Assembly (NCBI GenBank): GCA_021819035.1
Contig: JAKASL010000003.1
Location: 62,001-126,000, forward strand
DNA length: 64,000 nt
Origin: an archaeon
Lineage (GTDB): Archaea; Thermoproteota; Nitrososphaeria; Nitrososphaerales; Gagatemarchaeaceae
Direction: 5' to 3'
In this document: piece by piece, positions 13,662 to 43,400 of the stretch
Layout of the letters: each line of letters opens with the position of its first letter
How positions within the stretch are numbered: the stretch's first letter is position 1
Program-made: the position numbers and the translations under genes
The notes under the pieces: model-generated
Database searches by the model: none
Seen by the model: the letters and a program-made list of their open reading frames with translations, nothing else
Told to the model about the DNA's origin: nothing

Positions 13662-13754
13662 CGGGCCCGGAGGGATTTGAACCCTCGACCCTCAGCTCCG
13701 CAGGCTGATGCCCTGATCCGTGCTCCCCCTTGTAAAAGTCTAGGCTACGGGCCC
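13662..13754 (-). tRNA. tRNA-Arg (anticodon GCG) with D-loop insertion
   Basis: Read on the minus strand: acceptor GGGCCCG pairs with CGGGCCC, discriminator G at 13662; T-arm GAGGG-TTCAAAT-CCCTC; anticodon stem TCAGC/GCTGA around loop CTGCGGA, giving anticodon GCG (Arg, CGC codons) with U33 and G37. The D-arm begins GCCTAG and ends GGATCAGGGC, but about 18 extra bases lie between AG and GG where one to three are normal. That suggests a non-canonical D-loop intron, common in some TACK archaea. CCA is not encoded. A TATA element (TTATAT, about 13778-13784) overlaps the stop codon of the upstream UDG gene, about 26 bases before the tRNA. Confidence 0.85.
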
Positions 13755-41989: not shown

Positions 41990-42400
41990 GGGGGCCGAAT
42001 TCGGCTCGGTTGAGAATCGGGGGTGCAAGGACCGCCATCCGTTTGGCCTCCGCTGACCGCCTCCTAGCTGGAAGGTCGTCCGGGGAACGCCGAGGGCGGC
42101 AGCCATCTCCCCGGTGGAGACGCGCCGTGGCGAGCGATAGTAACCCATGGCCATGGACATAGCTGGGGCTGCCAACTGCAGCGAGGTCATCTCGGAGAGC
42201 GGGTCGAAGAAAGGTGGCACTGCCCCTCGGAAGGCGACACCCTTGCTCAGTTCGGCTCTGTTTGTTATCTCTGCCCTCCATTCTGCACTGAACCGGGCGA
42301 GCAGTCTGCCGGCGCCGGGCTCCCAATACCGGAGGCGTCAAGATGCATACCAGGCGAGCATCTCAGGAAAGTTGAGCCGCCTCGGACCGCGCTCTCTCAT
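41990..42400 (-). pseudogene. Decayed Bat-type HTH_10 transcriptional regulator
   Basis: Minus-strand pieces in different frames reconstruct one gene. From ATG 42400: MRERGPRRLNFPEMLAWYAS then a stop. A second frame gives LLARFSAEWRAEITNRAEL, FFDPLSEMTSLQLAAPAM and MGYYRSPRRVSTGEMAAALG VPRTTF, the HTH_10 (bacterio-opsin activator type) helix-turn-helix. It then breaks, and a third frame ends AEAKRMAVLAPP. No single frame covers the domain, so it is a pseudogene. Such regulators are abundant in Thaumarchaeota. Confidence 0.5.
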
Positions 42401-42612
42401 CCCTGCGCCCGGTGGAGAAGGTCAACATACTTGATGGCCTGGTTCTGCACGCCGGTCTGTCTGCCTGCTCACCTGAAAATCGCATTCGGATGTCGAGACA
42501 ATCGCCCCGAGCCCTTTGAAAGAGCGGCAACGGTGACATCAGCGATCACCGCGCGCCCGGTCCGTTAGGGGCGCATCACGTCGAGCCAGTACCCAAAGGA
42601 ACTTCCGGCCCG

Positions 42613-42738
42613 ATGGTCGTGCACTGGGTCAAGAGTCTACAGAACCTGTGCACGGACTGCCACAGGAGACCACAAGGTCTGATCAACCCGCTTCATAAGA
42701 GGCGTCCCTACAGCAGAACAGCGTGTTCTAGACGGTAG
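42613..42738 (+). pseudogene. HNH endonuclease C-terminal fragment
   Basis: A 41-codon open stretch reads LQNLCTDCHRRP, the closing part of an HNH motif (N-L-x-x-L-C-x-x-C-H). Upstream in the same frame PVPKGTSGP resembles the loop before that motif, but the H-H core is missing. HNH domains form the C-terminal endonuclease of many group II intron-encoded proteins, and a group II domain V lies 390 bases downstream. A free-standing HNH remnant is equally possible. Confidence 0.35.
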
Positions 42739-42778
42739 AACTAAACGCCCTGCTTTGCGCTTCAACTACTGACAGGTC

Positions 42779-42964
42779 GTGGTTGAGAACACCTCAAGAA
42801 CGAAATTGTCGAACAGAGAAAAGACCGCACTCGTTGTGGGCCTTGTCCTTGTCGCGGCTTTTGACTTCATAGCACCATTGGTGAGGGGAACATCTCCAGG
42901 TGGAGTGGCAATCCAGGGCGATGCTGGTAGCGCACACACACTACCAAGCTTCACGCAGTTGTGA
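42779..42964 (+). CDS. Small single-TM protein, possibly truncated
   Basis: 61 residues from GTG 42779. A basic and polar N-terminus is followed by a hydrophobic segment (about 19-35) and a Gly-rich tail. The composition is gene-like, but it lies in a region of decayed genes and ends soon after the TM segment, so it may be the start of a longer lost secreted protein. No family is recognised. Confidence 0.35.
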   Translation: MVENTSRTKLSNREKTALVVGLVLVAAFDFIAPLVRGTSPGGVAIQGDAGSAHTLPSFTQL

Positions 42965-43125
42965 GCTCATCTGGTTCGGAGACATGTATTGGCAGGGCGG
43001 CCTACACTTCGGCTACATGCCGCTTGTTGCATGACATTAGTTCTATTCGTCTCCCTGTAGTACAAAGAAGAATCTGAAATCCATCCATCTGAAGCACAAG
43101 AAGAGGACAGAGGACGCAGGGGTGA

Positions 43126-43216
43126 AAGCCCGGTGATGCGAAAGTATCACGCCAGGTTTGGGACGAAGGGTGCGTGCTCCCTGCCCGATTTGTTGAGCGT
43201 GGCGGCGCACTCTTAC
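43126..43216 (+). ncRNA. Group II intron 3' end: domains V and VI
   Basis: 43126-43159 is a 34-nt domain V: AAGCCCGG...GAAA...ACG...GGTTT. The AGC triad pairs with GTT (43127-43129 with 43156-43158), a second stem GATGC/GTATC closes a GAAA tetraloop, and the ACG bulge is in the conserved place; only one pair (position 6/29) is mismatched. Seven bases later AAGGGTGCG (43166-43174) pairs fully with CGCACTCTT (43206-43214), forming domain VI. TTAC at about 43213-43216 would be the 3' splice site (AY). No intact maturase or 5' end was found, so this is a remnant or ORF-less intron end. Confidence 0.7.
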
Positions 43217-43400
43217 CACGGTAGAACCCGACCGGATGGGCGATGACTGCGCTGACCGTCCTCCGGTGGACGCGCGTCTCTCGCCCTCACACGGACCTCG
43301 GACTGGGTACGTCGCCGTCGAACCCATCCGCCGGCACCCGATGGAGGAGCTCCGACCGTTTGGATAGGCCGACCCTGAGTTGAGGGGGACCTCTTGCGAG

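Follow-up and report, generated by a model that had tools for sequence, protein, structure and literature searches.

A 5'-truncated group II intron relic upstream of tbp and its relatives within an archaeal family

Results

The DNA analysed here (the window) is a 64,000-nucleotide stretch of contig JAKASL010000003.1 from a soil archaeon of the Gagatemarchaeaceae. Roughly 190 bases before the TATA region of its tbp gene lies a short element that carries the last two domains of a group II intron. It is located between two copies of a 9-bp direct repeat, CGCTGACCG, which also enclose what is left of an HTH_10 regulator gene, a fragment of an HNH domain and a frameshifted gene for a small membrane peptide (Table 1).

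Table 1. Features of the tbp-proximal relic and of related copies. Locations are window positions unless a locus is named.
Feature	Location	Strand	Basis or remark
Direct repeat CGCTGACCG, left copy	42051-42059	.	9-bp direct repeat
HTH_10 regulator gene remnant	42060-42316	-	PF04967, E 1.9e-7; not part of the intron
C-terminal HNH remnant of intron-encoded protein	42565-42669	+	corresponds to residues 541-576 of 580
Membrane-peptide pseudogene interval	42670-43063		between HNH remnant and intron tail
Small membrane peptide pseudogene, frameshifted	42779-43034	+	between HNH remnant and tail
Conserved intron segment (domain IV 3' arm and linker)	43064-43125	+	between protein-gene end and D5; aligned to L006, L007, L008, L010
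Domain V (D5)	43126-43159	+	34 nt; RF00029 and pairing compared with relatives; one C.A mismatch, 43131/43154
Domain VI (D6)	43162-43219	+	bulged branch-point A 43215; two mismatched pairs disrupt the base of the stem
CACGG	43217-43221	+	place of the relatives' CUCAG 3' intron end, mutated here; from alignment and the relatives' junctions
Direct repeat CGCTGACCG, right copy	43250-43258	.	9-bp direct repeat
Glyoxalase-like gene	L006:1265-1831		between HNH remnant and intron tail
136-aa membrane protein gene	L044:5543-6072		between HNH remnant and intron tail
Insertion sites in ArdC-like genes	L006:1972-2203; L010 after 2576; L041 (reverse strand) after tail		

An Rfam scan of the whole window matched RF00029 (Intron_gpII) at 43124-43194 on the forward strand, scoring 40.4 bits (curated threshold 40), with E values of 1.8e-4 in the window and 1.1e-6 in the genome. 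The same kind of scan of the source genome found this to be its sole group II RNA. The window's only further RNA-family match is a tRNA at 13662-13725 on the reverse strand (30.1 bits; Rfam threshold 29). A score just 0.4 bits over the threshold might suggest a chance resemblance to domain V, but homology to the intact introns described below extends along the entire tail and to the end of the HNH domain, which refutes this reading and leaves its probability negligible. The preliminary description of this DNA had placed a group II D5 and D6 at 43126-43216. The element is real, and besides the Rfam match it is supported by nine genomes of the family that carry homologous tails.

The D5 hairpin reads AAGCCCGGU-GAUGC-GAAA-GUAUC-AC-GCCAGGUUU and keeps all its landmarks, namely the AGC triad opposite GUU, the GAAA loop and the AC bulge. 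The architecture first ascribed to it therefore stands except for the C.A mismatch, which sits in the lower stem. D6 is likewise present, with its bulged A at the place homologous to the branch-point A of the relatives, but its basal stem is disrupted. What had been taken for an AY intron end at 43215-43216 is in fact this branch-point A together with the nucleotide that follows it; the relatives end in AG, and the position homologous to their intron end is 43221. Compared with L006, 4 of 38 pairs are lost in the window copy (D5 loses one, the base of D6 two and the D6 apical stem one), and these changes disrupt pairs that the relatives keep. Folding of the relatives yields a clean D5 followed by a D6 with one bulged A; their fold z-scores are −4.8 to −5.7, as against −0.9 for the window copy, which is indistinct from shuffled sequences. 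Across eight copies, a small sample, 94% of cells are paired in the D5/D6 structure compared with 30–52% when it is slid, and three two-sided changes are seen.

The HNH remnant has 58% amino-acid identity over 36 residues (E 2.9e-6) to the protein encoded by introns of the same lineage, and its DNA is 71–73% identical to L006, L007 and L010. It is the end of this protein and so belongs to the relic. The fragment had been noted earlier, and its homology to the C-terminus of the intron-encoded protein now ties it to the element. As this HNH relic shows, the ancestor encoded a protein, so the suggestion of an ORF-less element is unsupported; a degraded group II retroelement, proposed alongside it, is borne out by the covariance model, the homologous tails and two intact introns. 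In the window copy the RT-maturase is reduced to the HNH end alone. An nhmmer profile built from the 5' parts of L007 and L010 found no match to domains I-III or a 5' end in the window, including 42400-43120, where looking for a GUGYG start and domain I had been suggested, and none in any tail-only copy.

The triad, bulge and loop retained in D5 could suit an ORF-less intron that is functional, or one half of an intron acting in trans, still able to splice here by means of domains I-III encoded at another locus. We consider this very unlikely: neither a second group II RNA nor a reverse transcriptase was found in the source genome (an absence that is not absolute, as the genome is 88% complete), domain I was not found in the tested loci, and the base of D6 and the 3' end are mutated.

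From 43064 or 43076 to 43217, the window tail is 83–94% identical to the tails of L007, L010, L006 and L008. By Rfam the element occurs in 5 of 61 genomes, the window's own included; by DNA similarity it occurs in nine of 300 genomes of the order, all nine in the window's family. Group II matches were obtained in 9 of 400 genomes across the class. In the searches made here, the lineage appears restricted to this one archaeal family of the Nitrososphaerota. In the L010 genome (G143), one contig shows complete identity with a record of Candidatus Gagatemarchaeum stordalenia (Ca. Gagatemarchaeaceae, Nitrososphaerota). A separate group II lineage with its own RT, 35% identical, was observed at L116.

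Two copies are intact, L007 (genome G033) and L010, and both encode RT-maturase-HNH proteins. The L007 protein has 580 residues with RVT_1, GIIM (maturase) and HNH domains and scores above the curated cut-off of TIGR04416 (group II RT); the L010 protein is 75% identical to it over its full length. Both genes stop a few bases 5' of the conserved tail, and the 5' regions of the two introns are 80% identical. The Rfam models for D1-D4 reach only 21 bits on L007, and the placement of J2/3, for the gamma-gamma' pairing, is ambiguous in an alignment of the lineage with bacterial introns. Both introns have the D5 and the D6 with bulged A of group II introns; neither has the consensus GUGYG and AY ends. 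By its D5, D6 and protein the parent lineage thus classes as a group II intron, and by its putative termini as a variant one.

In the relatives, the sequence continues past the bulged branch A of D6 to CCUCAG. At four independent insertions (L006, L010, L041 and L007), comparison with uninterrupted paralogues gives a 3' junction that fits a CUYAG end, with the branch A 7 (7–8) nt from the 3' end. A branch A located 7 nt before the intron end is the usual group II spacing. In L010 and L041, similarity to the paralogue resumes directly behind CUYAG; in L006 it does so at an AG common to intron end and exon. In L007, excising GCGCG...CUCAG restores TWAPYVGTDA, compared with AWAPYAGTDA in the paralogue L095, and the predicted spliced junction joins ...GTAGGG to AGCCCAAG. 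An alternative L007 end at ...TTAC was rejected, as excision there fails to restore the reading of L095. CUCAG also occupies the place of the 3' end in L008, L040 and L043. The GCGCG 5' end is read at one precise site only, that of L007. The six bases preceding the L010 intron, which lie at the contig end (L010:1-6, GGCCTC), do not match the TACAT of the uninterrupted paralogue that is expected from the 3' side.

Three of these insertions (L006, L010 and L041) lie at different points within one gene family, which we take to be ArdC-type from its FHELAHAL motif. This family has up to five copies per genome. The several exact insertions of lineage members would lend indirect support to mobility. 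Taken together, the junctions fit introns that depart from GUGYG...AY at both ends while retaining the spacing of the branch A. GUGYG...AY holds for the vast majority of group II introns, but it is no absolute requirement (PMC4424553).

Several copies are associated with additional genes. The intact L007 intron contains a 169-aa secreted-type ORF (L007:4127-4636), placed after the 5' ribozyme part and before the RT gene. This ORF is missing from L010, an intron otherwise 80% identical, and G014 and G023 hold free-standing homologues of it; it is the only case of a putative passenger gene in an intact intron. Genes also lie between the HNH remnant and the tail of the decayed L006, L044 and window copies (Table 1), where they may postdate the death of the copy. 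No common sequence was found around the HNH remnants of these three. Open counterparts of the window pseudogene, with 68% DNA identity to it, occur in the same genome (G000:C3) and in G008. Small peptides of this family, predicted to be membrane-associated or secreted, recur in these genomes (the window pseudogene, L112, L113) and are characterized by an N-terminal hydrophobic stretch and a ...GDMYWQG.L..GC.PLVA end. At L008, similar-looking small ORFs (L008:1795-2130 and 2355-2630) flank the intron tail on both sides.

The tail-only copies L040, L043, L009, L006, L044 and the window begin at a similar place, just past the protein gene, in differing contexts and without domain I. They could represent a non-autonomous, SINE-like derivative, a D5-D6 tail of about 140 nt with or without a preceding gene, mobilised in trans by the protein of a full-length intron. 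However, domains I-III, which are needed for reverse splicing, are absent from all these copies, the DNA 5' of the tail is unrelated among them, many are decayed, and L041 starts farther upstream. The common start may simply mark the onset of non-conserved domain IV sequence. We regard this derivative as unlikely.

The surroundings of the relic differ between related genomes. The HTH_10 remnant has 79–88% DNA identity to G008, G029 and G024; it is found at the same locus in G008 and G029 and adjoins the same upstream genes in G024. It is, on these sequence comparisons, an older resident of the locus. Between HTH_10 and the tbp promoter, G008 and G029 have about 1.45 kb of different DNA. Sister species vary greatly in the interval corresponding to window 42060-43390, from the HTH_10 remnant to the tbp promoter, where their contents of 1–1.5 kb differ. 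The sister genome G018 has one copy of CGCTGACCG and is without the whole segment between the repeats, with flanks 94–95% identical. Its use as a clean empty site was rejected, since the missing segment includes the older HTH_10 gene kept by other sisters; a deletion between the 9-bp repeats would be at least as likely as an empty site.

The proximity to tbp and the well-preserved D5 raise the prospect that the hairpins were kept to serve tbp as a leader or regulatory RNA. Because the tbp TATA region is common to sisters without the relic, a role in tbp expression is unsupported. Sisters with the same tbp promoter have other DNA or none at this place, and other copies of the lineage adjoin unrelated genes, which makes such a role highly improbable. 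With this spacer differing between sister genomes, a link to tbp is not supported; the position of the relic looks accidental and would reflect a variable spacer.

Discussion

We conclude, with a probability of about 0.92, that the window copy is dead and 5'-truncated and derives from an archaeal group II intron specific to this family. The proposed route follows established group II retroelement biology. The ancestor would have been a retroelement RNA comprising domains I-VI that reverse-spliced into DNA and was copied by the RT-maturase-HNH protein it encoded. What remains is most of the HNH domain, the segment preceding D5, D5 and D6, interrupted by the membrane-peptide pseudogene; no trace of domains I-III or of the RT was found. 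Having lost these parts and carrying mismatches in D5 and D6, the copy should be dead; we infer that it neither splices nor moves and that it is without present function. Three observations count against this explanation. The near-perfect D5, with its one mismatch, could mean recent death or residual constraint; the similar start of several tail-only copies is unexpected under simple random truncation; and G018 is not a clean empty site.

A close comparison is with bacterial introns of actinobacteria and relatives (L011-L017, L019; TIGR04416), whose RT-maturase can be aligned with that of the lineage at 35–42% identity. D5 and D6 are over the Rfam threshold in most of these, and the distance from branch A to the 3' end is as in the lineage. 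In contrast, they start with GUGCGCCACGA and end in AC (GUGCG...AC), whereas the archaeal lineage starts with GCGCGUCACGA and ends in AG. Among proteins of solved structure, the TeI4h maturase (PDB 6me0) is the best relative of the intact protein, as a sequence match only (residues 59-426, 186 bits). Boundaries off GUGYG...AY are also found in C.te.I1, fungal rRNA introns and class B introns with domain VII (PMC4424553). In altered-site introns the splice site is shifted by 1–70 nt from the motif (PMC4424553), whereas in the present lineage the spacing is the same and the terminal bases are changed.

Archaeal group II introns are known from Methanomicrobia, some Thermoplasmatota and Asgard archaea; Nitrososphaerota are not listed (PMC8919778, PMC9887622). 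Those of Methanomicrobia and Asgard archaea are mobile, as the present lineage may be, and differ from it in host phylum (PMC8919778, PMC9887622). A limited literature search turned up no group II introns reported from Nitrososphaerota, and introns go unmentioned in the genome paper on the Gagatemarchaeaceae; the lineage is apparently undescribed. Judged from sequence, it may be a living archaeal group II family that splices and reverse-splices with GC...AG ends and can carry passenger genes in domain IV, a reading we hold tentatively and at somewhat below even odds.

Spliceosomal introns are presumed to descend from group II introns, which are rare among archaea. As a dead relic, the window copy is ordinary; it gives no sign of an effect on tbp and matters only as a pointer to its lineage. 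The lineage with altered termini is of moderate interest. It widens the known range of group II introns to Nitrososphaerota, and its GC...AG ends, if true, are reminiscent of spliceosomal termini. With both termini altered and the branch spacing constant, it would offer a natural test of the cooperation between the first and the last base of an intron during splicing.
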